From: Deltaproteobacteria bacterium
Lineage (GTDB): Bacteria > Myxococcota_A > UBA796 > GCA-2862545
Assembly: GCA_006226595.1 (NCBI GenBank)
Contig: SBGP01000021.1
Span: 1 to 55,955 of the forward strand
DNA length: 55,955 bases
Direction of reading: 5' to 3'
The notes below the pieces were generated by a model that did no database searches, was not told the origin of the DNA, and saw only the letters and a program-made list of their open reading frames with translations. Position numbers and translations under genes: made by a program. This document shows, one piece after another, positions 505 through 49,507 of this stretch; position 1 is the stretch's first letter; every line of letters starts with the position of its first letter.

Positions 505-1173
505 GTGGTCGCACGCGCCCAACACCGGGTCGAGACCCACGCCCGCATCCTCGAAGCCGCGATGGCCATGGTCGTCGAGTCGGGCTTCGAGGGGCTGTCG
601 ATGCGCGCCCTCGCCCGGCGCGTCGAGCTGACGCCCGGCGCCCTGTACCGCTACTTCGACGGCCAGGACGCCCTGATCGTCGCGCTCACCGCCCAGGTCA
701 TCGACGAGCTCGGCGCCGCGGTGAGCGAGGCCGTGCACGGCGTGCCCGCGAACCGACCGCTGCTCCGCGTGCTCACCGCCGCCGAGGCCTATCGCCTGCA
801 CTCGCTGGCCCACCCGAACCGCTTCGGCCTCGTGTCGATGCTGCTCGCCGCCCCGCGTATGCTGATTCCCGAGCGTGAGCGCGCGCGGCCCCTCGTGGAC
901 CGCATGCTCACCTCGCTCGCCCCGCTGCTCGAGTCCTTCGCCGCCGCCGAGGCTGCGGGACAGCTCGCGGCCGGCTCTCCCATCGATCGCGCGGTCATGT
1001 GCTTCGCGACCATCCAGGGCATGCTCACCCTGCGCAAGCAGGCCGCGCACGCCCCCGAACTCTTCGACCCCGAGCAGCTCATGCTCGAGGCCATCTGCTC
1101 TCACCTCGTCGGATGGGGAGCCCCGCACGCGGACGTCGCGCGGGCCCGCACCGATCTCGGAGGCGCCCGATGA
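505..1173 (+). CDS. TetR/AcrR-family transcriptional regulator
   Basis: A 222-residue one-component repressor. Residues about 8-55 form the TetR helix-turn-helix: RILEAAMAMVVESGF, then MRALARRVELTPGALYRYF, the classic recognition helix with the YRYF signature. The C-terminal two thirds are an all-helical ligand domain with no obvious subfamily. I chose GTG 505 because GGAG (496-499) sits 5 nt upstream. The in-frame GTG at 481 would put an operator inside the coding region and has no ribosome site. The stop overlaps the next ATG (ATGA at 1170-1173), so it is translationally coupled to the hydroxylase, which is probably part of its regulon together with itself. The ligand is likely lipid-like by context, but that is inference. 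Confidence 0.85.
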   Translation: MVARAQHRVETHARILEAAMAMVVESGFEGLSMRALARRVELTPGALYRYFDGQDALIVALTAQVIDELGAAVSEAVHGVPANRPLLRVLTAAEAYRLHSLAHPNRFGLVSMLLAAPRMLIPERERARPLVDRMLTSLAPLLESFAAAEAAGQLAAGSPIDRAVMCFATIQGMLTLRKQAAHAPELFDPEQLMLEAICSHLVGWGAPHADVARARTDLGGAR

Positions 1174-1730
1174 CCACCGTCCTCGCCGTGCTGCTCGGCA
1201 TCGCCACCTGGTCCTTCCTCGAGTACGTCATCCATCGCTGGGCCGGCCACGACCGCCGCCTCGTGAAGAAGACCCCGTTCGGGCACGAGCACACGCGCCA
1301 CCACAGCGAGGGCAACTACTTCGCCCCCACGTGGAAGAAGGCGGCGATGGCCGCGGTCGTCGTCCCGCTCATCGCCGGCCCGGTGTCGGCGGTCGTCGGG
1401 CTGCAGCTGGGCCTCGCTTACTCGCTGGGCTTCGTCGGCTTCTACCTGACCTACGAGTGGCTGCATCGGCAGCTGCACGTGAGCCCCGGCGTCGGTCCCT
1501 ACGCCCGCTGGGCTCGCAAGCACCACTTCTTCCACCACTTCCACAAGCCGTCGATGAACCACGGCGTGACCAGCCCGATCTGGGACTGGGTGTTCGGCAC
1601 CCTCGAGTGGCCCGAGCAGATCCGCGTGCCCGAGCGACTAGCGATGGAGTGGCTGTGCGCCGACGGCGACGTGCGCCCCGAGCACCGCGAGGACTACGCG
1701 CTCCGCCGCTCGAAGAAGTCCGCGGCCTAG
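1170..1730 (+). CDS. Fatty-acid hydroxylase / carotene-hydroxylase-like membrane di-iron protein
   Basis: A 186-residue integral membrane protein of the fatty-acid hydroxylase superfamily. The His clusters that bind the di-iron centre are all present: HRWAGH (22-27), HEHTRHH (39-45), HRQLH (99-103) and HHFFHHFH (118-125), followed by the family-typical MNHGVTSPIWDWVFGT. Hydrophobic segments at about 3-20 and 58-95 would place the His clusters on the cytoplasmic face. Its 4-nt overlap with the TetR gene makes it the regulated partner. The substrate (fatty acyl chain, sphingolipid or carotenoid) cannot be told from sequence. The stop is followed by CAGGCTGCT, a short motif repeated at 37033-37047. 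Confidence 0.85.
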   Translation: MTTVLAVLLGIATWSFLEYVIHRWAGHDRRLVKKTPFGHEHTRHHSEGNYFAPTWKKAAMAAVVVPLIAGPVSAVVGLQLGLAYSLGFVGFYLTYEWLHRQLHVSPGVGPYARWARKHHFFHHFHKPSMNHGVTSPIWDWVFGTLEWPEQIRVPERLAMEWLCADGDVRPEHREDYALRRSKKSAA

Positions 1731-1805
1731 CAGGCTGCTGAAACGGCGGACCGAGCGATCTGCGTCGGCGCAAGCCGGGACCTGACTTCGGGGTGGGCGT
1801 AGTCG

Positions 1806-2489
1806 CTAGAAGGTCGCGTCCACCGTCGCGCGCAGCGCCTCGCGGGCTCCGCCGACCAGCGGCTCGCCGTGGCCGCCGACCACCGTGTCGAACTCGAGCT
1901 CGAGCAGCCGCCGGAAGTCGGGCTCGAGGCTGCCGCCCTTCGGGGTCATCTGCTTTCGCCACGGGGGCCCGATCTGCGCGGGCCGCGCATTGAAGCCCAT
2001 GAAGCGGGTCGCGGCGCGGGCGATGAACGAGCAGTGTGCGAGCTCGTCCCAGTGCTGCACCGCGTCGCAGGTGACGAGGATGCCGTCCCCCCGATCGAGG
2101 AGGAGCGCCAGCTCCTTGCCGACGGTGTGCTGAAAGGCGAAGGTCTGCATCCACGGCACCGGCTGCTCGGTCTCGGGCCCGAGCACGACATCGGCGCGCA
2201 GCCCCTCGGCGGCCCAGCGCCTGGCGCCGTAGTGCTCGAGAAACCACGGGTCGTCCATGCCGTGGCTGCCGATCTTGACCACGTTGGCGACCTTGCCGAG
2301 TGCGTCGAGCATGCCCGGATCCTCAGGTCGCACCGCGTTGATCACGGTCAGCTCGCCCTCGTGACGGAGCACGACCATGACGCGGTTGATCACCATGCCA
2401 GGGGCCATGCGTACGGAGCCCCGCATCCACCACACGTCCTCGGCGAGGGGCTGCAGCGTGTCGTGGGGCATGGGCGCGGGATGTGTCAT
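1806..2489 (-). CDS. Metallo-beta-lactamase-fold protein with degenerate metal motif
   Basis: A 227-residue soluble protein. The fold is suggested by an N-terminal beta-rich half (RVMVVLRHEGELTVINAVR), a GSHGMDDPWF segment where HxHxDH would normally sit, VTCDAVQHWDE in the middle and VVGGHGEPL near the end, which resembles the last His motif of the superfamily. Only the first His and the Asp of HxHxDH remain, so metal binding may be altered or absent. ATG 2489 has GGAGG 5 nt upstream and a TATCCC -10-like hexamer about 19 nt upstream. It is divergent from the sigma-factor gene. Confidence 0.65.
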   Translation of the reverse strand: MTHPAPMPHDTLQPLAEDVWWMRGSVRMAPGMVINRVMVVLRHEGELTVINAVRPEDPGMLDALGKVANVVKIGSHGMDDPWFLEHYGARRWAAEGLRADVVLGPETEQPVPWMQTFAFQHTVGKELALLLDRGDGILVTCDAVQHWDELAHCSFIARAATRFMGFNARPAQIGPPWRKQMTPKGGSLEPDFRRLLELEFDTVVGGHGEPLVGGAREALRATVDATF

Positions 2490-2543
2490 CGGTACCTCCG
2501 CGCCTGGGATAGGTCGCGTGGCTGCCAGCCTACGTCAGCAGCG

Positions 2544-2571
2544 TCGACTTTTTTGATCGAAGCGGTAAGGT
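2544..2571 (+). promoter_or_regulatory. Putative promoter of the sigma-factor operon
   Basis: TCGACT (2544-2549) is followed after 16 nt by TAAGGT (2566-2571), with a run of six T in the spacer. It lies about 37 nt before GTG 2609 and would drive the sigma/FecR/kinase genes. The match to a sigma-70 promoter is only fair; an ECF-type autoregulated promoter cannot be excluded. Confidence 0.35.
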
Positions 2572-2608
2572 TGCCGCTCGGACGTGGCATGACGAGGGTG
2601 GAGGTCGC

Positions 2609-3160
2609 GTGCAGCCCGCACTGGTCGCCGACATCTCGGACGCCGCGCTGATGGCCAGGCTGGCCCGTGGGGACAGCTCTGCCCTCGGCCCGCTGTTCAT
2701 GCGCTACGGCAAGCTCGCCGGCTCGCTGATGCTGCGTGTCGAACCGAGCCTGTCCCGGGAACAGGCCGACGATCTGGTGCAGGAGGTGTTCCTCACCCTG
2801 CTCGACACGGCACCGCGCTACCGCGAGTCCCAGCGCCTCAAGGCGTGGATCTGCGGCATTGCGGTGCGCAAGGCGCGCGGGTGGCGACGCAAGCACTGGC
2901 TGCGACGCGGGTTGCTCGAGCGATTCACGCCCGAGCGCCAGGTCGAGGCCCTGCCGAGTCAGCGCGCCGAGGCCCGCCAGTCGATCGACCACGCGCTGCG
3001 GGCGCTACCCGCGGGGCAGCGCGAGGTTCTGGTCCTGCACGTGGTCGAGGGGCTGTCGGGCCAGGAGGTCGCCGAGACCCTCGGGCTGTCCGAGAACGCG
3101 GTGTGGGTGCGGCTGCACCGGGCGCGCAAGACGCTGAGCGCGCTTGGAGGGGAAGCATGA
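2609..3160 (+). CDS. ECF-type RNA polymerase sigma factor (sigma-70 family)
   Basis: A 183-residue sigma factor with region 2 (about 30-95: FMRYGKLAG, then QADDLVQEVFLTLLDT and RLKAWICGIAVRKARGW) and region 4 (about 125-178: RALPAGQREVLVLHVVEGLSG, then AETLGLSENAVWVRLHRAR). There is no region 1.1 or 3, as expected for group 4 sigma factors. GTG 2609 has GGAGG 4 nt upstream. Its last codons overlap the following gene (ATGA at 3157-3160), the usual layout for a sigma factor and its membrane regulator. It probably directs transcription of this module and of unknown targets in response to the FecR-like partner. Confidence 0.9.
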   Translation: MQPALVADISDAALMARLARGDSSALGPLFMRYGKLAGSLMLRVEPSLSREQADDLVQEVFLTLLDTAPRYRESQRLKAWICGIAVRKARGWRRKHWLRRGLLERFTPERQVEALPSQRAEARQSIDHALRALPAGQREVLVLHVVEGLSGQEVAETLGLSENAVWVRLHRARKTLSALGGEA

Positions 3161-4404
3161 GCGAGCACGAGCCCATCGACGAGCGCGTGAGGGAGTGGGC
3201 GGACGACCGGGTCGGCACCGCGCCGACCCTCGAGACGGCGCAGCTGCTGATCGCTCGCGCGGACGCCCGTGAGCGCCGCACCCAGGCGGTGTGGGTGACC
3301 TTGTCCCTGGCCGCGAGCGTGCTGCTCGCGCTGGTGGGAGCCGGCGGCCTTCTGCTCGCGAACCTCGGACTCGACGACCCGCAGCCACTCGCAGTTCACG
3401 TGCTGCGCGCCGACGGTAGCGCGGTGGCTCATGGCGCGAGCCTCGCGGTCACCGACGAGGGAAGCCTGGTCGCGAAGATCGGCGAGGACCGGATCGCCAT
3501 CGATGGACACACCCACGCGACGGTGACCCGCCACGACGTGACGCTCACCGAGATCGCGCTCATCGACGGCACGCTCGCCGCCGAGGTGGCGCCTCGCCCC
3601 AAGGGTCACTTCTTCCAGGTGCGCGCCCCCGACGTGCTCGTCACCGTCGTCGGCACCCTGTTCCTCGTGGACACCGATGGCGAGGGAACCCGCGTCGCGG
3701 TGAGCGAGGGGGCGGTCGAGGTCCGCCACGGCGAAGAGCTGTGGACCGTGAATCCCGGCCAGCAGCTGTGGGTGCCACACCGCGGCAACGCCGTGCTGAG
3801 TGCCCTCGACGGCGAGCTTCCCGAGGACCTGTTCGCGGAGCCGGCGCCCGCCGAGCCCGAGGCTCCCGTCGAGGTCGAGCCCGAGCTGGCGCCGGCACCC
3901 GTGACCGCCCCGACCCCGAAGAGCCGGCCGAGCGCCCCCGCGCCGGATCCGGTGAAGCAGGCACGCGCCCAGCTGCTCGCGGGCGACCCGACCGCCGCTA
4001 TTGCCCTGCTCGAGCCGCACCTGGCCGCGTCCCCGAGCGATGCCGGCGCGTGGACCCTGCTCGCCACCGCCCATCGCAAGGCAGGTCACCCGGACCGCGC
4101 CCTCGAGGCCTGGCGCGAGGTCATCGCCCGCGGCTCCGACGCCGAGGTGCGCCGCGGTCGGTTCGAAGCCGCCTCGATGCTCCAGGCCGCCGAGTCCCAC
4201 GAAGCCGCGGTGCTCGAGCTCCAGGCCCTGCTCGCCACGCCGAGCCACGGCGGATCGCTGGAGCCCGAGGTTCGCCTGCGCCTGGGTCGGTCGCTGCTGG
4301 CCACCGGTCGCGATGCGGAGGGGCGGGCCCAGCTCGTTCACCTGACCGAGCACTTCCCGGGGACCGCCGCCGCCGAAGCCGCCCAGACCCTGCTTCGGGA
4401 GTGA
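3157..4404 (+). CDS. FecR-domain / TPR membrane protein, probable anti-sigma regulator
   Basis: A 415-residue protein. Residues 1-45 are hydrophilic and cytoplasmic, and could hold the sigma factor. A single membrane span lies at about 46-70 (VTLSLAASVLLALVGAGGLLL). About 80-225 is a FecR-like periplasmic domain with the family pattern FFQVRAPDVLVTVVGTLFLV and VSEGAVEVRHG. A Pro/Glu-rich linker follows, then TPR-like repeats (about 270-410) suited to protein contacts. The start overlaps the sigma-factor stop. Sigma plus FecR/TPR plus kinase in one run suggests an envelope-sensing switch. The signal sensed is unknown. Confidence 0.8.
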   Translation: MSEHEPIDERVREWADDRVGTAPTLETAQLLIARADARERRTQAVWVTLSLAASVLLALVGAGGLLLANLGLDDPQPLAVHVLRADGSAVAHGASLAVTDEGSLVAKIGEDRIAIDGHTHATVTRHDVTLTEIALIDGTLAAEVAPRPKGHFFQVRAPDVLVTVVGTLFLVDTDGEGTRVAVSEGAVEVRHGEELWTVNPGQQLWVPHRGNAVLSALDGELPEDLFAEPAPAEPEAPVEVEPELAPAPVTAPTPKSRPSAPAPDPVKQARAQLLAGDPTAAIALLEPHLAASPSDAGAWTLLATAHRKAGHPDRALEAWREVIARGSDAEVRRGRFEAASMLQAAESHEAAVLELQALLATPSHGGSLEPEVRLRLGRSLLATGRDAEGRAQLVHLTEHFPGTAAAEAAQTLLRE

Positions 4405-4451
4405 GGTTTCGCGAGGCGTGAGCGGGCGTCGCCCGACACGGCTCGGCGCAC

Positions 4452-4457
4452 TACACT
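4452..4457 (+). promoter_or_regulatory. -10 hexamer TACACT placed for a leaderless kinase mRNA
   Basis: TACACT ends 6 nt before GTG 4464, so a start 6-7 nt downstream of the hexamer would fall on the start codon itself. There is no Shine-Dalgarno sequence in between. A small hairpin (CGGGC-GTC-GCCCG, 4423-4435) lies just upstream. Confidence 0.45.
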
Positions 4458-4463
4458 CGGCCC

Positions 4464-7052
4464 GTGGAACTGCCTCCCCAACTTCGTGTGGACCGCTACC
4501 AGGTCGAAGCCGTGCTCGGACGCGGCGGCATGGCCACCGTGTACCTGGTGCGCCACGTCGATCTCGGCACGGCCTACGCGATGAAGGTGCTCCACGTCCC
4601 CGCGGCGGCGATCCAGCAGCGATTGCTGCTCGAGGGCCGGGTGCAGAGCCGCCTGCGCCACGCGAACCTGGTCGCAGTCACCGACATGGTCGACGTCGAG
4701 AGCGCCCCCGGACTGGTGATGGAGTGGGTCGCGGGTCCGCCCCTCGACCAGTGGCTGCAGCACACGCGGCTCTCCTGGCCCCAGGCGGATGCCCTCGCCC
4801 GCGGCATCCTCGCGGGCGTGGCTCACGCTCATGCTCACGGCCTGGTGCATCGCGACCTCAAGCCGGCGAACGTGCTCCTCGCGCTCGAGCCCACCGGCGT
4901 CGTGCCCAAGGTCTCGGACTTCGGCCTCGCCAAGCTGCTCTCCACCGACGAGGGCGGGCCGAGCCAGACGCGCTCGGGCATCGCGATGGGCAGCCCCGCG
5001 TACATGAGCCCGGAGCAGATCCGCGACGCTCGGCGCGTGGATCAGCGGGCCGACGTCTTCGCTCTGGGTGCCGTGCTCTACGAGCTCGCCACGGGCATTC
5101 GCGCCTTCGGGGGCGGCGGCGACGCGCTCGAGATCTTCGATCACATCCGCCGCGGCGCCTTCCGTGACCCGCGCGAGCTCGCTCCGGAGCTGCCGGAGTC
5201 CTGCGCCACGCTCATCGAGCGCTGTCTCTCCATCGACCGCGACGACCGACCCGCGGACGCCGCCGCCGTGCTCGAGGCGTGGATCGCGGACCGTCCAGAG
5301 CCTCGCGAGCCATTCACCGAGGAGGAGATCGCCGAGCTCGAGTCCCTCGCGCCGGAGCCCCGCCCCCTCGGAGCCAGCCTCGACGACCTGTCGACGGGAA
5401 GCGAGACCTTCGGCGAGTTCGATCTGAGCATGGGTGAGATCGAGGTGCGGAGCTTCCTCGGTGAACCCGCCGAGCCCACCGCCGAGGTGCCGCCCCCCGA
5501 GCCCCGGGCCCGCCGGTGGACCTGGGTCGCCGCCGCGGCCGCGCTCGTCGCCCTGGTGCTCGTGCTCCCGTGGCGCGCCCCTCCGCCTCCGGCGTTCACC
5601 GCCGAGGCTCCCCTGCTCGCCCAGGGCGAGGCCCAGCAAGCGCTCGCCGACGGCTGGGAGCGCATGCTTCACGCGGACTTCGAGGGAGCCATCGAACAGC
5701 TCGAGGCGGCAGCCCCGTCCCCGCTGGTCGACCTCGCCATCGCCCTGGCTCGTCGCCAGAGCCTGCAGCGCGGTGCGGGCAACGAGGCCCTGTGGAACGC
5801 CTCGAAGAAGACCGGACCCGGCGCCGAGCTGGCCCAGGCCGTGCTCGCGCTCCACGCCAAGCGCATCGAGGACCCGGCTGCACCGCTGGCGGCGTACCGC
5901 GCGCAGCGCCCCGATGACGTGCTCGCCGCGCTGTGGGTGCTCGAGCTGCTCCCGCCCAACGAGACCGAGGCCCGGGACGCGGCCATGCGCGACATCGCGC
6001 GCACCCTTCCCGAGCAACCCCTGCCCGTGTGGCTCACTGCCGCCGAGGCCCTGCGCGCCGGGGACGTCGAGGGCTCGCAGCGCTTCGCGCGCGAGGGTCT
6101 GGAGCGTTTTTCCGACGAGCCGGCCCTGCTCCTTGCACTCGGCCGCGCCCTGGCCGCCGAGGGACGCATGGAGGAGGCCCGCGCGCCGCTCCGCCTGTCG
6201 TTCGAGCTCGCGCCGAGCGCCGCGACCCGCAACGAGCTCGTCGCCAGCCTGCTCCTCGCCGGAGAAGATGCCTCGGGCCTGATCGGCGAGGGCATGGACC
6301 CGGCGCGTCCGGTCGAGCAGCACTCGGCCTTCGCGATCTCCACCGCCAACACGCTGGCCGGGCTCGGGCGGGTGCAGGAGGCGGTCGCCCTGCTCGCCGA
6401 GGCCGAGGACCGGGCACTGGCGGAGGGGCAGTACTCGAGCACCGCCGCCATCGTCGGCACCGAGGCCGTGATCTACATGATCACCGACCTCGACGAGCGC
6501 ATGGCCGCGACGACCGACCGCCTGCAGCAGTTCCTGCTCAACCCCGAGATCCCCGACGGCGAGCGCAACATCCTCGTGCGCAACCTCACCTACGCCCAGG
6601 GCATGACGGAGGCGCGTCGCGGAAACCTCGACGCCGCCCGCACCATCGTCGAGCGCCTGCGCACGACCGGCGTCGGACCCGTGTACCTCGAGTGGCTCGA
6701 GCGCGAGATCGCCATCCGCGACGGCGACACGCACGGCGCTCTGGCGCTGTTCGAGACCCAGCCCGAGGGCTGCGAGCGAACCCTGCTCGAGGCCCGCGCC
6801 GCCGACGTGTCCGGGTCACTGGACCGGGCGGCGAGCTTCGCTGTGCAGGCGCTGGACGGGCACTGCCCCGCCACGGGCGAGCTGCGCCTGCTGCAGGCCG
6901 CGGCCTGGGTGATCCGCGCCGACCATGCCCTCGCCGAGGGACGGCCGGGCGAAGCCAGCGAGGCCCTGAGCGCCTACGACGCCCTGTGGCCCCGGCCAGA
7001 CCGCGAGCTGCCGCTCGTGCTCCGCGCCGACGCGCTTCGCGCAGTGCTGTAG
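4464..7052 (+). CDS. Transmembrane Ser/Thr protein kinase with helical-repeat C-terminus
   Basis: An 862-residue Hanks-type kinase. The kinase domain spans 10-275: glycine loop GRGGMATVY (19-27), catalytic Lys41, HRDLKPANV (129-137), DFG (152-154) and activation loop ending GSPAYMSPEQ. An acidic linker leads to one membrane span at about 352-370. The extracytoplasmic 490 residues are Ala/Leu/Glu-rich helical hairpins of TPR type. All catalytic residues are intact. It follows the FecR gene by 59 nt and may have its own leaderless promoter. The stop TAG directly abuts the stop of the convergent GST gene (TAGCTA, 7050-7055). It probably links an outside or periplasmic cue to phosphorylation of cytoplasmic targets. 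Confidence 0.9.
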   Translation: MELPPQLRVDRYQVEAVLGRGGMATVYLVRHVDLGTAYAMKVLHVPAAAIQQRLLLEGRVQSRLRHANLVAVTDMVDVESAPGLVMEWVAGPPLDQWLQHTRLSWPQADALARGILAGVAHAHAHGLVHRDLKPANVLLALEPTGVVPKVSDFGLAKLLSTDEGGPSQTRSGIAMGSPAYMSPEQIRDARRVDQRADVFALGAVLYELATGIRAFGGGGDALEIFDHIRRGAFRDPRELAPELPESCATLIERCLSIDRDDRPADAAAVLEAWIADRPEPREPFTEEEIAELESLAPEPRPLGASLDDLSTGSETFGEFDLSMGEIEVRSFLGEPAEPTAEVPPPEPRARRWTWVAAAAALVALVLVLPWRAPPPPAFTAEAPLLAQGEAQQALADGWERMLHADFEGAIEQLEAAAPSPLVDLAIALARRQSLQRGAGNEALWNASKKTGPGAELAQAVLALHAKRIEDPAAPLAAYRAQRPDDVLAALWVLELLPPNETEARDAAMRDIARTLPEQPLPVWLTAAEALRAGDVEGSQRFAREGLERFSDEPALLLALGRALAAEGRMEEARAPLRLSFELAPSAATRNELVASLLLAGEDASGLIGEGMDPARPVEQHSAFAISTANTLAGLGRVQEAVALLAEAEDRALAEGQYSSTAAIVGTEAVIYMITDLDERMAATTDRLQQFLLNPEIPDGERNILVRNLTYAQGMTEARRGNLDAARTIVERLRTTGVGPVYLEWLEREIAIRDGDTHGALALFETQPEGCERTLLEARAADVSGSLDRAASFAVQALDGHCPATGELRLLQAAAWVIRADHALAEGRPGEASEALSAYDALWPRPDRELPLVLRADALRAVL

Positions 7053-19447: not shown

Positions 19448-21064
19448 TCAGCGCGTCGCGAGGCCGCTGAGCTCCGGGCAGTCCACGTAGTCCGCCGCGC
19501 AGTCGCCGGCGTCGACCCGCTGCTCGGCGCAGGCCCAGTACGCGTTGGTCGCGGCCCGGCACTCGTACATGGCGTGCAGGAAGCGCTCGCGGGTGGTCGG
19601 CGCCTCGCCGAACATGCAGTCGTAGAAGCCCGAGTACTCACTCTCGCAGCCGGTCTGGGCACACTCGCTGAACAGCGAGGCGACCCCACAGCTGAAGCAG
19701 CTGTCGCTGGCCGAGCTCATGCACGAGGTCCGGCAGAACAGGTCGCCCGCGTCGCAGGTGGCCATGCACTGCTCGAAGCCGTCGCAGACCTCGCCGCTGC
19801 CGTCGCCGTAGAACGGGGTCGCGACGCTCACGAAGTTCAGGCACATCTCGTCGAAGGTGCCCTCGCCCCAGGTGATGTCGACGGGGGTCTCGCCGCCGGG
19901 CTGGTTCTGGCTGCTGTTGTCGTAGGTGCAGCGAATGCGGAACTCATCGGCCCAGCCGACCTCGATAGGCTCGGAGAAGGCGTAGCCGCGCTGCCACTGG
20001 AAGTTGTACTGCGGGATGTTCGCGAGGCAGATCTCCTCGCCGTCCTCGCGGATGAGCGTGGTCTCCTGAGACACGCCGCGCACGTGCATATGCGGGCTGC
20101 TCGCGAGGATGCGCCCATCGAGGGGCATACGCTGGCGCTGGATCTGCACCGACTCGCTGTCGTAGGCGGCGATGTCGAGGTCGAGCTTCACGATCGGCCA
20201 GGCGGTGACGAGCTCGTCGGGCAGCACGCCGGCCGGGTAGGTCCACAGGTCGACCGCGGTGCTGTCCACGTCGTCGGCGTCCACGCCGGTCGCGCCGAGG
20301 GTGTTGTAGTGCATCTGGAGCACGAGCTGCGAGCCTGCGGGAATGCGCAGGGCCACGCCGTCGGGAAGCGGTCGGAAGCCCTCGCCGCCCGGCGCCCACC
20401 CGGTGATCATCATCGCCTCGGACTGCTCACCGCTCTCGGCACCCGGCCCGCCGAAGCACTCGTAGCCCTCCTCGGGGTCCTCGGCCTCGAGGCGGTCCAC
20501 CAGATCCCGCTGGCTCGGCGGCATCGCATAGAGGATGGCGTGGTGGGCCACCGCGAGGTTTCCGGGGCGCACGCGGGTCGCGGACACGAACAGGTCCTCG
20601 GTGGTCGGCGCCCCCATCTGCACGCAGCGGTAGTCGTCGGATAGCCCGCGGTCCGGCAGGTAGCCGTCCATCGCAGCGATGACGTCCGGGTCGCGGTCGG
20701 GCGTCGGGTACGGCGTCACCTCGGGGGCGACGTAGTCGCTCTCGCGGCCCTCGGGGTAGCCGCGCTCGGCCCACGCCGTGAACAGCGCAATCTCGTCGTC
20801 CGAGAGGTGCTCCAAGCCGACGATGTCGTTGCAGCCCGGGTCATAGCCCCACGGGGGCATGATCTTCTCTTCGACCGCGGCGACGATGAGCGGCGCATAG
20901 GACGCCACACTCTCGTACGAGGAGAAGTCGTAGGGCGCGACCGTGGCGTCTCCCGAGTGGCAGGTGACGCAGTTGGCCTCCATCAGCGGGCGCACGTCGC
21001 GATGGTAGGTCGCGTTCGTGCTGGTGCCACAACCGACCAGCGCGAGAAGGAACAGATGACGCAT
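19448..21064 (-). CDS. Copper type II monooxygenase-like lipoprotein with c-type heme motif
   Basis: A 538-residue lipoprotein (lipobox LVGC, Cys12). Residues 32-36 are CVTCH in a DVRPLMEANCVTCHSGDA context, typical of the short heme-c domains in front of secreted oxidoreductases. Two domains of the copper type II ascorbate-dependent monooxygenase kind follow. N-terminal half: VAHHAILY, a Cu-ligand-type His pair, and VLQMHYN. C-terminal half: SSPHMHVRG, an HxH Cu motif. The last 120 residues are Cys-rich (over a dozen Cys). ATG 21064 begins the signal peptide; an upstream in-frame start (21100) does not. It probably hydroxylates a small molecule outside the cell using copper; the electron donor could be the heme domain. 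Confidence 0.83.
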   Translation of the reverse strand: MRHLFLLALVGCGTSTNATYHRDVRPLMEANCVTCHSGDATVAPYDFSSYESVASYAPLIVAAVEEKIMPPWGYDPGCNDIVGLEHLSDDEIALFTAWAERGYPEGRESDYVAPEVTPYPTPDRDPDVIAAMDGYLPDRGLSDDYRCVQMGAPTTEDLFVSATRVRPGNLAVAHHAILYAMPPSQRDLVDRLEAEDPEEGYECFGGPGAESGEQSEAMMITGWAPGGEGFRPLPDGVALRIPAGSQLVLQMHYNTLGATGVDADDVDSTAVDLWTYPAGVLPDELVTAWPIVKLDLDIAAYDSESVQIQRQRMPLDGRILASSPHMHVRGVSQETTLIREDGEEICLANIPQYNFQWQRGYAFSEPIEVGWADEFRIRCTYDNSSQNQPGGETPVDITWGEGTFDEMCLNFVSVATPFYGDGSGEVCDGFEQCMATCDAGDLFCRTSCMSSASDSCFSCGVASLFSECAQTGCESEYSGFYDCMFGEAPTTRERFLHAMYECRAATNAYWACAEQRVDAGDCAADYVDCPELSGLATR

Positions 21065-21122: not shown

Positions 21123-22730
21123 CTACAGATCGGTGCTGACCGCGGTGAGCGGCGAGCTCGTCGCCGGCTCGGTGTAGTAGACGTCCGCGTGCTCCTGGTA
21201 GTAGCACTCGACGCTTGCCTCCGAGAACGTGCCGACGTTGGTGTGCAGCGTGGTCACCTCGTGCAGCGACGCCACGTGGCTCAGGCCCTCGATGAAGCCC
21301 CCACAGTTGGCGGGCACCGCGTCGACCACGAGGTCTCCCGCGTTCGGCGCGTCCCAGCTCAGCACCACCGGCATCGTGCAGTTCGCGTAGCCGTACAGCC
21401 CGGCGTTCCACGCGCGCTCGACCCCCGCGACCTTCCAGCCGTTCCCGTCGTTCTCGGCGTAGGACCGCATCGCCACGCCGTCCACGCGATAGCCCGACAG
21501 CGCGCTGTCCGCGTCCGGCGCGATGGGCGTGCCATCCGGCAGCGTCCAATGGTCGTAGCGCAGGCCCGAGCCGCTGTCGGCGTGGGACTGGACGACCGGG
21601 AAGTCGCTGAACGGCGTCGAGTTCGACGCAATGACGTAGAAGGTGCTCTCGGGGTCCAGGGTCTGGCTGCTGCCGTTGGCGCAGTAGTAGTTCTGGGTCG
21701 AGACCACCGCGAACAGCGACTCCACGGGCTCCCACGAGCTGAAGTCCGCGATCAGGACGTAGGCCGGCACCTCGGAGCGCGAGGTTCCCACGTAGCCGTA
21801 CGGACCGTTCGGGCTGCTGCAGTCGGCGGCCCACAGGCTGCCCGAGTTCGACGTGTCCTCGTAGGGAATCGCGCGGGTCTGGAAGTCCCCGAGCGGCATC
21901 GCCGCCTTCGCCGGTCGCTCAGACGCGATGTGCCACAGGCCACCGAGGGCCTTGCTGCCATCCTCGCCGGTGAGCACGTGGCGGCCGACCTCGCTGTCCA
22001 CGGCGACGTGGCTCGAGGTGAACTCGACGAAGGTGTCCGGCGTCACCGGCACGCCGACGATGCCGTCCCAGGTCGGCGACGACGTCGACACCCCGCAGTA
22101 GCCGCGGGAGTTCAGCGTGTACACGTCCTGGGTGGTCGACGCCGCCGAGTAGATCGCGTACGCATCCCCGCGCCGGTCGTAGAAGTAGCTGCCCGCGTCG
22201 CACTCGCCGAAGAACAGCATCGCCGGCTCGGTGCACGCGCTGTCCGCGAACAGCGCGCTCTCGGTCACCTCGAGAGCCTCGGGCAGGCAGCGGATCTTGC
22301 CGTCGGTGGCCAGCTTGGGCGCGCATCGCACGCCGAGCTCGGTGTCGACGAACCAGGCGACGACCTCGTTTCCGTGGGCATCGACGACCGCGTGGGCGGT
22401 CAGCCGCGTGCCGGACTGGGGCTCGGTCGCGTACGCACCGAGGGGCGCCGGGTCGGTGTCGGTATCGGCATCCGTGTCCGCATCGGCATCGGTGTCCGCG
22501 TCGGCGTCCGTGTCCGCGTCCGCGTCCGTGTCCGCGTCGGCATCGGTGTCCGCGTCGGCATCGGTGTCCGCGTCGGCATCGGTGTCCGCGTCGGCATCCG
22601 TGTCCGCGTCGGTGTCGGTGTCGGTGTCCGTGTCCGTCTCGGCGGCGGTGTCCTCGGCGGTATCGAGGGGCACGTCATCGCCGCCGGTACAGGCGATCAG
22701 CGACAGGACGAGGAGCGAGGATCGGAACAT
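21123..22730 (-). CDS. Lipoprotein with long Asp/Thr/Ala repeat linker
   Basis: A 535-residue surface protein. The signal ends LSLIAC with Cys14. Residues about 29-95 are an almost pure DTDADADTDAD stalk encoded by an 18-bp tandem repeat. The remaining 440 residues form a Cys-containing, Tyr/Ser-rich extracellular domain that I do not recognise. The stalk probably lifts that domain off the membrane. ATG 22730 has GGAGG 7 nt upstream. It follows the terpene-cyclase gene on the same strand with 71 nt between and may be co-transcribed, but a -10-like GATAGC in the gap allows its own promoter. Confidence 0.7.
   Translation of the reverse strand: MFRSSLLVLSLIACTGGDDVPLDTAEDTAAETDTDTDTDTDADTDADADTDADADTDADADTDADADTDADADTDADADTDADADTDADTDTDPAPLGAYATEPQSGTRLTAHAVVDAHGNEVVAWFVDTELGVRCAPKLATDGKIRCLPEALEVTESALFADSACTEPAMLFFGECDAGSYFYDRRGDAYAIYSAASTTQDVYTLNSRGYCGVSTSSPTWDGIVGVPVTPDTFVEFTSSHVAVDSEVGRHVLTGEDGSKALGGLWHIASERPAKAAMPLGDFQTRAIPYEDTSNSGSLWAADCSSPNGPYGYVGTSRSEVPAYVLIADFSSWEPVESLFAVVSTQNYYCANGSSQTLDPESTFYVIASNSTPFSDFPVVQSHADSGSGLRYDHWTLPDGTPIAPDADSALSGYRVDGVAMRSYAENDGNGWKVAGVERAWNAGLYGYANCTMPVVLSWDAPNAGDLVVDAVPANCGGFIEGLSHVASLHEVTTLHTNVGTFSEASVECYYQEHADVYYTEPATSSPLTAVSTDL
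22453..22640 (-). repeat. In-frame tandem repeat, 18-bp unit (coding DADADT)
   Basis: Near-identical 18-bp units fill this stretch. Four perfect copies of GTGTCCGCGTCGGCATCG (plus-strand reading) begin at 22528, 22546, 22564 and 22582, and degenerate 6- and 12-bp variants flank them. Because the unit is a multiple of three, copy-number change would alter stalk length without breaking the frame. Confidence 0.85.
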
Positions 22731-22801: not shown

Positions 22802-25800
22802 TCAGTCCATCAGACCCCAGCGATGCACGAGGGCATCGGGCAGGCGGAAGGTCGTCTGCTTGCCCTCGCGCTCGACCAGGATCAGCGCCTCCATCACCGC
22901 GGTCGCGATGTACGCGGGCACCGAGGCGTAGCGCGGGTGGCGGTGGTGGAGCTCGAGCACGTTCGCGATGCGCGACTGCACGTGCAGCACCTTCCGGATG
23001 ATCGCCCGTCGCTTGGCGTACTTGGGCAGACCGAGCACGTCCGCACAGCGGTCCCCCGCAACCTCACGGATGAGCATCTCGGCCATCGGCACGCCCGGGT
23101 TGGTCGGCGCCGGCATCATGTCGGCGATCGACCAGCACAGCTGGTGGGTGAGCCGACGCCCCTGCTCTGACGGGGCCCACTGGTCGTCCCGAATCGCGTC
23201 CATCAGCGCACGCGCGTCGTCGATATCGGGGGCGAGCAGGTTCTCGTGCACGCCCATCACGTGCCCCACACACGCCCACGTGTGCATCCACGCCTTCTCT
23301 TCGTGCGGGGAGACGTGGATGTGCAGCCGCTTCATCGCGTCGAGCACGACCAGCGAGAAGGTCATCACCGTTCCGGCGAGGTCCTCCTGGTTGATTGGCA
23401 CCCCCCAGGACGGCGTGGCCCAGGCCCGCCGCATCAGCGAGTGCTGGCGAACCGTCGCGTGGATGAGACGCACCTTGCGCGCCACCGCGAGTCCCCTGCC
23501 CTTCGGCCCGAACGAGTCCGGGGCGAGCACGTCGAACAGGAACTGCGCGGTCTCGCCGATGCGTCGCTTCACGTGCTGCGTGAGCCCCTGCGTCTCGAGC
23601 AGGACCCGCGCACCGTTGGCGGCGGCGTAGGCCTGCGGCAGGCTGCTCGCGAACAGGCACAGCGCGAAGGACCAGCCCACGCGCTCGTAGAAGGCCTGGG
23701 CATCGCGAATGAGGTCGTGGTCGGCCCACTCGGGCAGGTTGGCGTTGTCCTCGAGCCACTTGGCGAGCTCGGGGTCGACATCCGGCGGGAAGGGGTCGTC
23801 GTTGGTGACCATGTGCCGGAACACGTCGCTCACCTGCTGCAGCTGGTGGTTCTCCATCACCTTGCGGACGACCGCGTCCGCGCTCGGGTCACCGACCGTG
23901 CGCCACGCCCGCAGACCCTCCTGGCTCCACGTTCCGTCGGGGTTGCGCACCGACGCGGTCGGCCAGGTGTCCCCCTCGTTGCCCCCGAGCACGCCCTTGA
24001 TGCTGCGCGTCGTCGCGCCGCCGGCCGCGACCTCGAGACCGAGCTGTGCATGGCGGTAGTGGCCGAGCGCCTCGAGGGGCATGTTCGTGTCAGAGGCGGG
24101 CAACCAGTAGAAGTAGCCGGGCAGCAGGAACACGTGCTGCCAGCCCTTGTTGGCCCAGGTGCCGCTCTTGCGCTGAGTCTTCACCAGGTATGCCGCCGCC
24201 CGATGCGCCGCGTCGGTCTGGCCGTGACCCGCACGGCACAGCGCACTCAGCGCCAGTCCCGTGAGACCCGGCATGCTCTCGCCCTGGGCCTTGGACTTCT
24301 CGGGGTGCACGTAGCTGTCGATGCCCTCGCCCCAGCCGCCGTCCTTGTTCTGGTGACCGACGAGGAACTGCACGCCGCGGTCGAGCATCGCCTTGTTCTC
24401 GCAGCCGACCGACGTCAGGCCGATCAGGCACCACGCGGTCCCCGCGACGTAGTTGGTCATCCACCGCGACCACCAGCTGCCGTCGGGCTCCTGCATGCGC
24501 ACGAGGAACTCGATGGCCGACTTCACCCGCGGGTCGTCGGGCGTCGCATCCATGCGTCCCCAGGCCTCGAGGATGCGGGCGGTCACGTCCTCGGTGGACG
24601 GGTCGCCGAAGGTCGCGACCTTCTGGCGCAGGTCCTTCATCGCCTTCTTCGGGTCGGTCCAGTCGAGGGCGGCGTGCTCGACCCACATCGGGCCGCGCAG
24701 CTTGCCGGGCTGTCCCTGCTCGTACGCCCCCCAGCCGCCGTCCTTGTTCTGCATACCGATGAGGTACTCGCGGGCCTGCTCGCAGGAGTCCGCGGCCGAG
24801 TTGACGATGTCCTCCAGCGCCGGGTTCTTGGCGCTGCGCTGCAGGAACATCGACAAGGCACCCATCGCCACGCCGGTGTCGTCGTTGTCCGGGCAGCTGT
24901 TGTTGGCGTACTCGTAGCCAAAGCCGCCGAGCTTGGGACCGCGGTCTGGCGTCGTCGGGGGGAGCTCCGTCTGCTGCTGCGCGCCGTACAGGTGCTTCAC
25001 GCCGCCGAGGATGGCCGGGTGGGTGGGGTCGACGTCGCAGACGAGCAGTGCGCGGAGGTTGAGCGCGGTGTCCCAGACGTCCGAGCCGAAGATGTTGTAG
25101 TAGAGCGTCGTCGAGTTCTCGACCCGCTGCTCGGCGAGCCAGCTGACCGCGAGGTCGTAGTGCTCGTTCCCCGGGCCCTCGCCGAGGGTACGCAGGGCGC
25201 ACAGCCACATCACCGTCATCAGCGCGATGCCGTTGATGGCGCCGTTTCGGCTCTGGTAGTTCGCGCAGAAGTCGATGATCGCCTTCTTCTCACGCGCGCC
25301 GATGCTGCCGCCGCGAAGCCCGGTGAAGATCGTGCCCAGCTGGAGCATGCCCGTGAGCACCCCGGCGTTGATCACCTTGCTCGCCTCGTGGAGTGCACCC
25401 GGCACCTCGATCCACGCGAGCGGGATCTTCGGCAGCTTGTCGGCGTCGAGGATGCCGGCGTACCCGAGGTAGGGCGCTGTCGCGTACGGATCGGAGAGCG
25501 CCTGCTCGGCCACCGCGTCGAGGCCGCCGTTCGCGAGCACGTAGTCCCAGGCCTGGGCGAGCCGCGGGTCGTCTTCGGCGAGTCCGCTTCGCGACAGCGC
25601 GGCCCAGCACGCGGCCGTGCCGACGAGCGAGCCCTCCCCGACGTGGAGGTTGCTCGGGAAGGAGCCGTCCGGGAGCTGCTGGCGCAGGATCCAGGTGCAC
25701 ACCTTCTTGTCGTCGCTCGGCCGGGTGTGCCCGAGCTGCTTGAGGATCAGGTGCACGAGGGCCGTGGCAGCCGGCGCGAGCTGCGGGACCTGTTGCCAGC

Positions 25801-25885
25801 CGCCGTTCGGCAGCGGGTTGGCGAGGATGGCAGCGGTGCTGCGGTCGATGGCCGCGCCGAGGCGGTCCATGCTCACGGGGGTCAT
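22802..25885 (-). CDS. Fusion of squalene-hopene-cyclase-like domain with Lcp/MpaB (DUF2236) oxygenase-like domain
   Basis: A 1027-residue soluble or peripheral protein with two enzyme modules. Residues 1 to about 625 follow the class II triterpene cyclase pattern: VWDTALNLRAL (270-280), CPDNDDTG with the DxDD acid motif (DNDD 333-336), QW motifs QNKDGGW (379-385), QEPDGSWWSRW (465-475) and QNKDGGWGE (512-520), and DPSTEDVTARILEAWG (428-443). Residues about 655-1020 match the rubber-oxygenase/mycophenolate-oxygenase family: GDPSADAVVRKV, WADHDLIRDAQAFY, KVRLIHATVRQHS, SWGVPINQEDLAGTVMTFS, MHTWACVGHVMGV. The ATG overlaps the stop of the upstream kinase (ATGA, 25882-25885), so both are made together. 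Likely role: cyclise an isoprenoid and oxidise or cleave it. Product unknown. Confidence 0.88.
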   Translation of the reverse strand: MTPVSMDRLGAAIDRSTAAILANPLPNGGWQQVPQLAPAATALVHLILKQLGHTRPSDDKKVCTWILRQQLPDGSFPSNLHVGEGSLVGTAACWAALSRSGLAEDDPRLAQAWDYVLANGGLDAVAEQALSDPYATAPYLGYAGILDADKLPKIPLAWIEVPGALHEASKVINAGVLTGMLQLGTIFTGLRGGSIGAREKKAIIDFCANYQSRNGAINGIALMTVMWLCALRTLGEGPGNEHYDLAVSWLAEQRVENSTTLYYNIFGSDVWDTALNLRALLVCDVDPTHPAILGGVKHLYGAQQQTELPPTTPDRGPKLGGFGYEYANNSCPDNDDTGVAMGALSMFLQRSAKNPALEDIVNSAADSCEQAREYLIGMQNKDGGWGAYEQGQPGKLRGPMWVEHAALDWTDPKKAMKDLRQKVATFGDPSTEDVTARILEAWGRMDATPDDPRVKSAIEFLVRMQEPDGSWWSRWMTNYVAGTAWCLIGLTSVGCENKAMLDRGVQFLVGHQNKDGGWGEGIDSYVHPEKSKAQGESMPGLTGLALSALCRAGHGQTDAAHRAAAYLVKTQRKSGTWANKGWQHVFLLPGYFYWLPASDTNMPLEALGHYRHAQLGLEVAAGGATTRSIKGVLGGNEGDTWPTASVRNPDGTWSQEGLRAWRTVGDPSADAVVRKVMENHQLQQVSDVFRHMVTNDDPFPPDVDPELAKWLEDNANLPEWADHDLIRDAQAFYERVGWSFALCLFASSLPQAYAAANGARVLLETQGLTQHVKRRIGETAQFLFDVLAPDSFGPKGRGLAVARKVRLIHATVRQHSLMRRAWATPSWGVPINQEDLAGTVMTFSLVVLDAMKRLHIHVSPHEEKAWMHTWACVGHVMGVHENLLAPDIDDARALMDAIRDDQWAPSEQGRRLTHQLCWSIADMMPAPTNPGVPMAEMLIREVAGDRCADVLGLPKYAKRRAIIRKVLHVQSRIANVLELHHRHPRYASVPAYIATAVMEALILVEREGKQTTFRLPDALVHRWGLMD

Positions 25886-28800
25886 GCGGTCTCCGTGCGC
25901 CTCGCGTGTCGGGCGGCCCCGAGCTCGACGAAGAGCGCGTGGGCCTCGGCGAGGGCGCCCGCATCCTGCACATGGCGACCGAGACCTTCAAGCGCGCACG
26001 CGAGCTCGAAGGGCATGGCCCGCGCCCGCCCGCTGTCCACGGCCGCCCGCAGCTTCGCCTCGGCGTCGCTCGCTCCCCGTCGCACCGCCAGCTGGGCGGC
26101 GGCGTGTCGGGCCGAGGTCTCTCCCATGAGCACGGTCCGCGCCTGGCGCTCGGCCTCGCGCACGGCCTCCTGCGCGCGGGCGACGAGCAGGTCACGCGGG
26201 ACGTCGAGCGCCTCGGCATGGTCGATGAGCTCGACCCGGGTCAGCGGCAACACCCGCTGGAGCATCGAGGTCGACGGGTCGCCGCCGGTCCCGGTGCCGA
26301 GGATGTCGCGCACCTCCTCAGCTGCGCGGTGCGCGCGCCCCGGGTCGCCACTCGCGAGTGCCCACGCCGCCTCCAGCCCCCACACGCTGGCGCGCTGCAC
26401 CGGCCCGTCCTCGGCGAGGTCCGCGTGGGCGGCCGCGATGTGCTCCCCCGCGAGCGCGAGATCCCCGTCCTGCAGGCACACCTCGGCGGCGGTGAGCAGG
26501 TCCGCTCCCGCGAAGTGGCGCTGGCCCTCGCGACGGCGCAGACGAAACAGGTCCTGCACCCGCTCCCGCGCCCGCGGCATGTCGCCCATGGAGCGCGCGA
26601 GCAGGTGGTCGTTGAACAGCGCGTACTCGACCCGCTGAGCATCTTGCGACCGCCGGGCGTGGTCGAGCGCCCGATCCGTATGGACGCGCGCCTCGTCATA
26701 GCGGGCCTGGTAGATCGCGAGGAAGCCCTTCTGCGTCAGCGTGGCCGCCAACGCGCCGTCGCGGGCCGCGCCCTCCTCGCGGTCAGCCCATGCCTCGCCA
26801 CGCTCGAAGGCCGCATCGGCCCAGGCCTGGCGCCCGGCCAGCCCGTAGATCAGCGCGACCATGCACTTCACGCGCGCCCCGAAGCCCCACACCTGGCCGG
26901 TCTCGCACAGGTTCACCCCCCAGAACAGGGTGGTGAGGAACGACAGCGGTGCCGGGTCCCGGAGGAAGCCGTACCAGAGGAAGTAGAGGACGTACGCCGC
27001 GGCCCGGTCCCGGCGCAGCGCCTCTCCGTCGCGCACCGGCGCCCCCCACCAGCGATAGCGCGCCTGCGTCGCGAGCTCGGACGCGAGCCGAAGCCCCCAC
27101 CCGAGCTGGCTGCTGGGCAGGCGCATGCCGAGCAGGGGCAACACCTCGCGCGCGATCTCGAGCGACACCGCGGCCTGACCGTTGGCGTGCACCGCAAGCC
27201 CGCGACGCACGAGGATCTCGGCGCGCTCGAGCGGCGGCAGTCCCTCGAACCAGCGTCCGGCGTCGACGGCGCGCAGCTCGTCGAACAGGCTTCGGGCGAG
27301 GCGCATCTGACCGCTCTGCAGCGCCTCTTCCGCGCCGGTGAGCAGGTGGGGGACGGCATCGAGACTGCGACCGCCGCGGAGCAGGTGTCGGCCCAGCTCG
27401 GCGGCTGACGCGTGATCGGCCCGAACCTCGGCAGCCCCGAGGTGCAGCGCGCGAACCTCGGCCTCGGCGAGGTTGTCGTACGCGGCCTCGAGCAGGCGGT
27501 CGTGGGTGAAGGCGAAGCGCACGTCGTCGAGCTGCTCGGCGATCTGCGACGCGCGCAGCTCGGCGAGGCCGGGCAGCGGGTCGAGACCGAGGATGGCCTC
27601 GAGGTCCGCGGCACGGAACACCTTGCCGAGCACGCTCGCGGCCCCGAGCACCCGGCGGGCCTCGTCCGAGAGGCGCTGCAAGCGGTTGTGGAGCACCGCG
27701 ATGCCACGCGGGCTCTGGCGGAGGGACGCGTGCGCCGCCCAGGTCCACCGCGCGCCGTCCCAGCGAAGATCACCGCTGGCTTCGGCCTCGTCGAGGAGGA
27801 TGGTCGCGAGCAGCGGGCTGCCGGCGGAGCCCTGGACGAGCGCCTCGGCCACGTCCTCGGGCATGGACGAGCCGGCGGTCATGGCCACAGCGAGGTCGGT
27901 GATGTCCCGCTGCCCCAGTGTGGGCACCACCCAGTCTGCGAGCAGGCCCTGTCGGCGCCAGGACTCGATGCTGTCCGGCAGCTCCTCGGAGCGCGCGGAG
28001 AGCAGCACGGCGAGCCCGGGCATCGGCTCGCGGAGCAGCACCTCGACCACGGCCAGGGTGAGCTCGTCCGCCCACTGCACGTCATCGATGACCAGCAGCT
28101 GCGCCTGCTGCGACCCGACGTCCGCGAGTGCGCGCAAGGCCGAGGCACGCAGCTGATCCGCGTTCGGCGGCGCGACCTCGCCCTCGCCGAGCCCGTCGAC
28201 CACGGCGCGGAGCACGGGCAGTGCGTCCTCCCAGGCCTCGGCGCGCCCCTCGAGCACGGCGGTGCGAAGCAGCGGCGCGAAGCCCTGGAGCGCGCGCGCC
28301 GACTCGCCGCGATCCGTGCGGTTGCCGCCACAGTCGGCGCTGTGAACGCGCAGCCCGCGGGGTCGAGCACGGCGGAGGATCTCGCGCAGCAGGCGCGTCT
28401 TTCCACTGCCGCTCGGCCCGAGGACCAGGTGCACCGGACCCTTCGCGCTGCGGTCGAGGAAGGCGTCCGCCTCGGCAAGCAACGCGTCCCGGCCGGTGAG
28501 CGGCGGCCGGAACAGGCGCGGGGAGCCATCGGGCCAGTCCTCGGGAAGCGCGCCACCACCCAGCGCCTCGAGCTGCTCGCCGACCGGTCCCGCATACGGC
28601 GGACGGGCATCGGCACGCGGCGCGAGCAGGGACTCGGTGAGCGCGTCGAGCTCGGGCCGATCGAGGCTCTCGAGCATGCGCCCGACGGCGTACAGATCGC
28701 TGCGACCGTCGAGGGGAAGTCCGCGGCGCTGCTCGGGCGAGGCATAGCCGCGGGTGCCGCCGACCAGCGTGTTCACGGGCTGCGCCTCGCGCCCTTCCGC

Positions 28801-29298
28801 GTCGTGGAGGTGCACGGCGATCCCAAAGTCCGCGAGCACCGGGCGCCCCTGCTCGTCGAGGAGCACGTTCCCGGGCTTCAGATCGCGATGCACCACGCCG
28901 TTCGAGTGCAGCCAGCCGAGAATCGCGCAGATCTGTCGCACGATCGGCAGCGTGAGCTCGCTCTCCTCGCCCTCCTCCCCGCCGGCGGGGTCGAAGGTGA
29001 GCGCCGACTCGCCGAGTGCCCGCGGATACAGCGGCATCGCGTACCAGGGACGCCCCTCGTGTTCGCCGCGAGCGAGCACCGGCACCACACCGGGATGCCG
29101 CAGCGACGCGAGCAGCGCGGCCTCCTGGCGCAGCACCTGACCGTGGGTCGCACCCGGCTTGGCACGCTTGATCGCCACCGGCTCCGCATGCCCGTGCACG
29201 AATCCGCGCCAGACCTCAGCCATGCCGCCTTCGGCAAGCAGTGCACGAAATTGGACCAACGACGCGTTCACACCGTCCCCGCCGGCCTCTTCTACCAT
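25882..29298 (-). CDS. Ser/Thr kinase - AAA ATPase - TPR regulator (PknK-like layout)
   Basis: A 1138-residue cytoplasmic signalling protein. The kinase domain covers about 15-240: loop AEGGMAEVW (22-30), Lys44, HRDLKPGNVLL (137-147), DFG (157-159), GTRGYASPEQ. It is linked to a P-loop ATPase: GPSGSGKT (294-301) and LLVIDDVQWAD (401-411), the STAND/AAA type seen in PknK- and MalT-like regulators. The last 550 residues are helical repeats with scattered aromatic pairs. No DNA-binding domain is visible. ATG 29298 lies 6 nt from a TATCAC hexamer; the frame is open further upstream, but only into the divergent FHA gene. Its stop overlaps the cyclase-oxygenase start, so it probably senses a metabolite and controls that enzyme or its expression. 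Confidence 0.87.
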   Translation of the reverse strand: MVEEAGGDGVNASLVQFRALLAEGGMAEVWRGFVHGHAEPVAIKRAKPGATHGQVLRQEAALLASLRHPGVVPVLARGEHEGRPWYAMPLYPRALGESALTFDPAGGEEGEESELTLPIVRQICAILGWLHSNGVVHRDLKPGNVLLDEQGRPVLADFGIAVHLHDAEGREAQPVNTLVGGTRGYASPEQRRGLPLDGRSDLYAVGRMLESLDRPELDALTESLLAPRADARPPYAGPVGEQLEALGGGALPEDWPDGSPRLFRPPLTGRDALLAEADAFLDRSAKGPVHLVLGPSGSGKTRLLREILRRARPRGLRVHSADCGGNRTDRGESARALQGFAPLLRTAVLEGRAEAWEDALPVLRAVVDGLGEGEVAPPNADQLRASALRALADVGSQQAQLLVIDDVQWADELTLAVVEVLLREPMPGLAVLLSARSEELPDSIESWRRQGLLADWVVPTLGQRDITDLAVAMTAGSSMPEDVAEALVQGSAGSPLLATILLDEAEASGDLRWDGARWTWAAHASLRQSPRGIAVLHNRLQRLSDEARRVLGAASVLGKVFRAADLEAILGLDPLPGLAELRASQIAEQLDDVRFAFTHDRLLEAAYDNLAEAEVRALHLGAAEVRADHASAAELGRHLLRGGRSLDAVPHLLTGAEEALQSGQMRLARSLFDELRAVDAGRWFEGLPPLERAEILVRRGLAVHANGQAAVSLEIAREVLPLLGMRLPSSQLGWGLRLASELATQARYRWWGAPVRDGEALRRDRAAAYVLYFLWYGFLRDPAPLSFLTTLFWGVNLCETGQVWGFGARVKCMVALIYGLAGRQAWADAAFERGEAWADREEGAARDGALAATLTQKGFLAIYQARYDEARVHTDRALDHARRSQDAQRVEYALFNDHLLARSMGDMPRARERVQDLFRLRRREGQRHFAGADLLTAAEVCLQDGDLALAGEHIAAAHADLAEDGPVQRASVWGLEAAWALASGDPGRAHRAAEEVRDILGTGTGGDPSTSMLQRVLPLTRVELIDHAEALDVPRDLLVARAQEAVREAERQARTVLMGETSARHAAAQLAVRRGASDAEAKLRAAVDSGRARAMPFELACALEGLGRHVQDAGALAEAHALFVELGAARHARRTETA

Positions 29299-44464: not shown

Positions 44465-44465
<1 letters not shown>
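43407..44465 (+). CDS. Outer-membrane-type protein with N-terminal helical repeat region
   Basis: A 352-residue exported protein (signal peptide VIALWTLVVAAQAAC). Residues 20-110 are TPR-like helices with LDAAETALQVLDLPAAEAYL. About 110-185 is a beta-sandwich-like part. The last 160 residues alternate beta strands with Gly/Ala turns (VRLGIGTGFAFG, LGLDFGVGPVFFEAEG, FGLTVAYDLGLL), as in an outer-membrane barrel. GTG 43407 has GGAG 5 nt upstream; an upstream in-frame GTG at 43323 gives a non-signal N-terminus. It shares one base with the next gene (TGATG), so it is in the same operon as the giant repeat proteins and might export or anchor them. Confidence 0.7.

Positions 44466-49503
<5,038 letters not shown>

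Positions 49504-49507
<4 letters not shown>

Follow-up and report, generated by a model that had tools for sequence, protein, structure and literature searches.

A single gene for a terpene cyclase and an oxygenase

The window, i.e. the whole stretch of 55,955 nucleotides that was analysed, carries on its reverse strand a gene in which a class II terpene cyclase is joined to an oxygenase of the DUF2236 family, together with an adjoining kinase gene. The main features are the following:

22802..25885, minus strand: fusion gene, class II terpene cyclase plus MPAB/Lcp (DUF2236) oxygenase; ATG start, 1027 aa
24038..25870, minus strand: alpha-alpha barrel class II cyclase domain, residues 6-616 (Pfam, alignment, fold match)
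24878..24889, minus strand: DNDD, residues 333-336, with D335 as putative general acid (alignment to D374-D377 of 1gsz)
23951..24028, minus strand: linker, residues about 620-645 (low pLDDT; length poorly conserved among fusions)
22832..23941, minus strand: predicted MPAB/Lcp globin-type heme oxygenase domain, residues about 649-1018 (Pfam, alignment, fold match)
25882..29298, minus strand: Ser/Thr kinase plus AAA_16 ATPase gene, directly upstream of the fusion gene and overlapping its start by 4 bp

That one polypeptide joins these two enzymes had been proposed in a sequence-only reading of the locus and holds at the level of both profile and fold. Pfam gave significant matches in both halves, namely SQHop_cyclase_N at residues 13-156 (7.7e-24) and SQHop_cyclase_C at residues 268-611 (2.7e-64), both above the gathering score, and MPAB_Lcp_cat (PF09995, formerly DUF2236) at residues 748-968 (5.2e-25; 89.3 bits against a cut-off of 23). 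A sequence search of the PDB connected the cyclase half to the squalene-hopene cyclase (SHC) of A. acidocaldarius (1gsz, 7e-41) and residues 662-963 to the rubber oxygenase Lcp (latex clearing protein; 5o1l, 1.9e-25), and family profiles matched SHC at 4e-123 and Lcp at 5e-54. In an AlphaFold2 model of the fusion protein (41 aligned sequences; mean pLDDT 88.8, pTM 0.68; linker 620-645 poorly predicted), residues 6-616 superpose on SHC 2sqc (Z 49.5, 2.5 A, 566 residues) and residues 643-1014 on Lcp 5o1m (Z 33.3, 347 residues aligned). The motifs on which the proposal was based were all recovered, i.e. DNDD at 333-336, QW motifs at 70, 379, 465, 512 and 571, RLIHATVR (806-813), GVPINQEDLAGT (828-839) and MHTWACVGHVMGV (867-879). 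The DUF2236 unit itself thus stands, and only its limits, originally put at residues 655-1020, had to be corrected to about 649-1018, with the linker at about 620-645. An assembly error that joined two genes was ruled out by the recurrence of the fusion in five further genomes and by the coding composition that the linker maintains (GC3 0.92).

The start of the kinase gene (29298) was placed at the ATG with which the glycine-rich loop becomes complete. Downstream of the fusion gene and on the same strand lie two further genes, of which one (21123-22730) encodes a protein that is secreted or resembles a lipoprotein and contains a long repeat of Thr/Ala-Asp dipeptides, and the other (19448-21064) a secreted protein with a Cu2_monoox_C domain (copper type II monooxygenase-like) and a CxxCH motif. 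Elsewhere in the window, two giant genes on the forward strand (44465-49507 and 49504-54519; 1680 and 1671 aa) overlap and have similar N-termini; they probably encode repeat-rich secreted paralogues.

Class membership of the two domains

The N-terminal domain has the DxDD acid, five QW-type motifs and the two-barrel fold that define the class II (DxDD) triterpene cyclase superfamily. In the alignment, D374, D376 and D377 of SHC correspond to D333, D335 and D336, the first two of which do not vary in the 22 family cyclases or the 5 canonical SHCs, and W312, W489 and F365 correspond to W271, W475 and Y324. The C-terminal aromatic pocket (F601/F605/Y609/Y612) is intact in each of the 5 canonical SHCs, which served as controls, and altered in each of the 22 family members that were compared, i.e. 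the window protein and 21 relatives. Mutants of SHC indicate that these residues affect the later rings, and the altered pocket may therefore point to a different product or substrate. Two other candidate diagnostic losses were dropped: H451 of SHC is replaced by Arg in the family, as it is in 4 of the 5 controls, and changes at D377 occur in canonical SHCs too. Against NCBIfam's hopene cyclase equivalog, TIGR01507, the window protein scores 221.7 bits and thus falls below the cut-off of 431.1. Score and pocket set the cyclase apart from the hopene cyclases proper, although it belongs to the wider class II superfamily.

The C-terminal domain shows a comparable combination of shared and replaced residues. 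In Lcp, a protein with a globin fold (PMC5522427), R164, T168 and H198 are conserved in almost all homologues, and the oxygenase activity requires R164 and T168 (PMC6311187); two structural salt bridges connect D56 to R195 and D60 to R202, E148 is the proposed base, and K167, present in 59% of Lcps, is the distal ligand (PMC5522427). The window counterparts of R164, T168 and the heme ligand H198 are R775, T779 and H809, and those of the salt bridges are D666-R806 and D670-R813; all of these are invariant in 23 of 23 sequences, so that the objection that heme-site or catalytic residues might have been lost falls away, and the domain is predicted to bind heme. E148 and K167 are aligned with G758 and E778, respectively. 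By its Pfam gathering score and the near-invariant R164, T168 and H198 the domain classifies as a member of PF09995, yet, with E148 and K167 replaced, as no Lcp rubber oxygenase proper. The suggestion that the domain oxidises or cleaves its substrate is accordingly supported as far as the oxygenase signature goes, but rubber-type cleavage is unproven, since E148 and K167 are replaced; hydroxylation or another oxidation is therefore as possible as cleavage of a C=C bond. The domain lies C-terminal to the cyclase in a chain that has no obvious N-terminal secretion signal.

Recurrence and origin of the pairing

The fusion is present in six genomes from three families of one phylum, i.e. the host and five others (G328, L123; G342, L124; G585, L163; G586, L161; G457, L162), whose proteins have 993-1028 aa and are 33-37% identical to the window protein. 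In G212 (L125), G556 (L164) and G451 (L166) the two genes are unfused, the cyclase gene coming first and the DUF2236 gene overlapping its end; the overlap is 4 nt in the first two and 8-65 nt in the third, depending on the choice of start. The arrangement is reversed (kinase-DUF2236-cyclase) in G322, a genome of the window's order, where the cyclase carries a frameshift. At L139 (10598-13203) a frameshift splits the cyclase that adjoins the DUF2236 gene and the upstream kinase has an in-frame TAG, indicating decay or an assembly error. Outside the phylum, the genes for DUF2236, a TonB-dependent receptor and the cyclase follow one another as a single string on the same strand in the gammaproteobacterial MAG UBA3532 (L003), with the DUF2236 gene followed by the receptor at 1068-6437; in G707, also gammaproteobacterial, a receptor-sized gene follows the DUF2236 gene (L215:8862-12133) and the cyclase lies on a different contig. 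In total, the pairing was found in 10 genomes of the one phylum and in Gammaproteobacteria. A contig scan with the window protein (P0001) mainly hit canonical SHCs and, in addition, the UBA3532 locus. Spread by plasmids was considered and discarded, as the plasmid matches listed include only ordinary SHCs, none spanning 80% of the query. The search of phage families gave no match.

Cyclases of the same clade occur without a linked DUF2236 gene at seven loci (L127, L128, L129, L130, L131, L132 and L170), and the oxygenase is therefore not obligatory for the cyclase. In the host's class, of which 71 genomes were covered, no genome other than the host's carries the fusion; the congener G001 has none, and the fusion is therefore an accessory trait.

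A kinase gene lies directly upstream of the fusion or cyclase in the window and at L124, L162, L129, L131, L167 and L166 (the last of a kinase-TPR type), and upstream of the DUF2236-cyclase pair at L139. The host encodes at least 152 kinase domains, and in G363, G457 and G342 the best match of the window kinase, among hundreds of candidates, is the kinase beside the cyclase or fusion. The adjacent kinase-ATPase may control the fusion. Genomes that are large and rich in kinases suggest Myxococcota as the host's phylum. On the upstream side, the f42 fusions and cyclase adjoin a small divergent conserved gene (about 125-135 aa, ..WPIVVHRTIGSP..), of which the L161 copy had no match in a Pfam search:

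L123:8262-8633, L161:2485-2874, L163:7930-8343 and L128:1173-1580: small divergent gene

At a further locus, L126 (9196-18416), which represents a candidate terpenoid cluster, the gene for a family cyclase precedes that for a fusion of amine oxidase and acetoacetate decarboxylase and those for other flavoenzymes.

The family cyclases constitute a single clade, separate from the canonical SHCs (support 100/100). The fusion state requires at least five changes on the cyclase tree, gains and losses not being distinguishable. The f42 group has the L164 cyclase as its sister (100/97), and the DUF2236 partner of this cyclase groups with those of the pairs L125 and L166 (100/99); forcing that partner to the f42 fusions, the grouping implied by the cyclase tree, was rejected (AU p 2.6e-5). 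A single origin of the fusion is compatible with the DUF2236 tree taken alone, on which one clade of fused domains was not rejected (p 0.34), but one fused-cyclase clade is rejected on the cyclase tree (AU test, p 1.9e-37). According to the trees, the two enzyme classes therefore were joined more than once or had their partners replaced. This repeated pairing argues for a strong functional link between cyclase and DUF2236 protein, and together with the recurrent fusion and the overlapping gene pairs it greatly strengthens the earlier view that both activities form a unit.

Proposed reaction and comparison with known systems

The recurrence of both enzymes, fused or side by side, implies that they probably act on the same terpenoid. 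We favour, with moderate confidence, the reading that the fusion is a bifunctional terpenoid-tailoring enzyme that cyclises and then oxidises one isoprenoid, and infer what each domain does, in which order, and that both share a substrate, as follows. D335 of the DNDD motif in the N-terminal class II domain would protonate the terminal double bond of a linear isoprenoid, and the domain would close one or more rings; the globin-type DUF2236 domain, with a His809-ligated heme, would then use O2 to oxidise that molecule, at an allylic carbon or at one of the double bonds still left in it, either cleaving the C=C bond or hydroxylating. A more specific version, which we put forward as a tentative possibility, is that of a 'cyclise-and-cut' chain under control of the kinase-ATPase, in which one end of a non-squalene polyprenoid is cyclised and the other is cleaved by the heme globin, the product being a truncated oxo-terpenoid; such chains would recur in myxobacteria-like genomes.

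The identity of the isoprenoid is hinted at by the remaining genes of the host. Its single SQS_PSY gene, which scores below every NCBIfam cut-off, overlaps with a gene for a polyprenyl synthetase and has CrtD/CrtI- and CrtC-like genes as neighbours, and because of this carotenoid-cluster setting it is most likely a phytoene synthase. A dedicated squalene synthase or an HpnC/HpnD pair was not found in the host assembly (97% complete), and neither UBA3532 nor G322 (85% complete) has an SQS_PSY match. Other family members come with squalene synthases, even with full sterol clusters. The substrate in this host is thus probably not simply endogenous squalene, and the designation 'triterpene' given to the cyclase at the outset is unproven, in view of the carotenoid setting of the only SQS_PSY gene, the missing dedicated squalene synthase and the gammaproteobacterial relative that has no such gene at all. 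Elsewhere in the host (contig C25, L195:6986-9513), a polyprenyl synthetase gene overlaps a gene for a class II cyclase of 499 aa, the size of a diterpene (copalyl diphosphate synthase-like) enzyme.

The order of the two reactions could also be reversed, in the sense that the DUF2236 domain cleaves a long polyprenoid, made or imported, and that the shorter oxo-isoprenoid is then cyclised. This would accord with the products of Lcp, i.e. oligo-isoprenoids that end in aldehyde and keto groups (PMC5658616, PMC5522427), with a remodelled cyclase pocket that suits a non-squalene substrate, with the fact that squalene synthase was not found in the host or UBA3532, and with the TonB-dependent receptor between the UBA3532 genes and the receptor-sized gene by the DUF2236 gene of G707, which are expected in the case of lipid import. 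Nevertheless, we consider it unlikely, given the Gly in place of E148, the proposed base of Lcp, the position of the DUF2236 domain behind the cyclase in a chain lacking an obvious secretion signal and, as weak evidence, the fact that the cyclase comes first in most gene pairs.

Two other explanations dispense with consecutive reactions. The domains might act on different molecules within one programme, for instance a stress- or development-linked remodelling of isoprenoids under the kinase, and be fused for co-regulation or dosage; the kinase upstream in the window, at L124, L162 and L166, of the L139 pair and of the DUF2236-less cyclases at L129, L131 and L167 fits such a programme, as do the stand-alone DUF2236 paralogues in many genomes, the host included. 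That the same two classes were paired repeatedly and independently, up to overlapping frames and single chains, fits a shared substrate better, and we therefore take the latter as the best explanation and co-regulation as improbable. Alternatively, the DUF2236 domain might serve to gate the cyclase, as a heme sensor or as a scaffold, a role for which the globin fold of Lcp (PMC5522427), the two changed active-site residues and the adjoining signalling kinase could be cited; since R164 and T168, needed for the oxygenase activity of Lcp (PMC6311187), are invariant in 23 of 23 sequences, we deem it highly improbable.

The pairing defined here, in which a rubber-oxygenase-like heme protein repeatedly accompanies a proton-initiated cyclase, offers a concrete and testable starting point for finding out what DUF2236 enzymes do in nature and for tracing new polycyclic oxo-terpenoids. 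To our knowledge, few DUF2236 enzymes besides Lcp and fungal MpaB have been characterised. The initial impression that no enzyme of this architecture has been characterised agrees with our literature search, which found no paper describing it, most subscription papers being outside its reach. If true, the cyclise-and-cut reaction would make this protein the first case of a class II cyclase fused to an oxygenase of this heme type and its product a new structural class. Biocatalysis would also profit from a single chain that forms rings in an isoprenoid and afterwards oxidises or cleaves it.

Compared with SHC (A. acidocaldarius, 1gsz/2sqc; TIGR01507), the window protein shares the alpha-alpha barrel pair, the DxDD acid, the QW motifs and the W312/W489/F365-type aromatics, but reaches half the cut-off score, belongs to a clade of its own and has a remodelled pocket and a fused oxygenase. 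With the Lcp/MpaB family (PF09995; 5o1l, 5o1m) it has in common the fold of the whole domain, R164/T168/H198 and both structural salt bridges, whereas it differs from Lcp in the replacement of E148 and K167, the position behind a cyclase and the lack of an obvious secretion signal. Fusions of an oxygenase to a triterpene enzyme are apparent in the sterol clusters of L199 (3669-7160 and 7175-10786) and L200 (6404-9721 and 9756-13154), namely SQE-OSC (1163 aa) and SQE-SQS (1203 aa), the L199 pair being confirmed by Pfam and the L200 pair by position and an N-terminal FAD motif only; in these family-f42 fusions, however, the oxygenase is of the FAD squalene-epoxidase type, stands at the N-terminus within a sterol cluster and, like its partner, belongs to other families. 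The nearest known analogue is the HAD-class II cyclase fusion of the drimenol synthases (PMC9128629, PMC13244436), where a class II cyclase and a tailoring enzyme likewise share a single chain, but where the partner is a phosphatase-type HAD domain instead of a heme oxygenase, which makes it an unrelated fusion.
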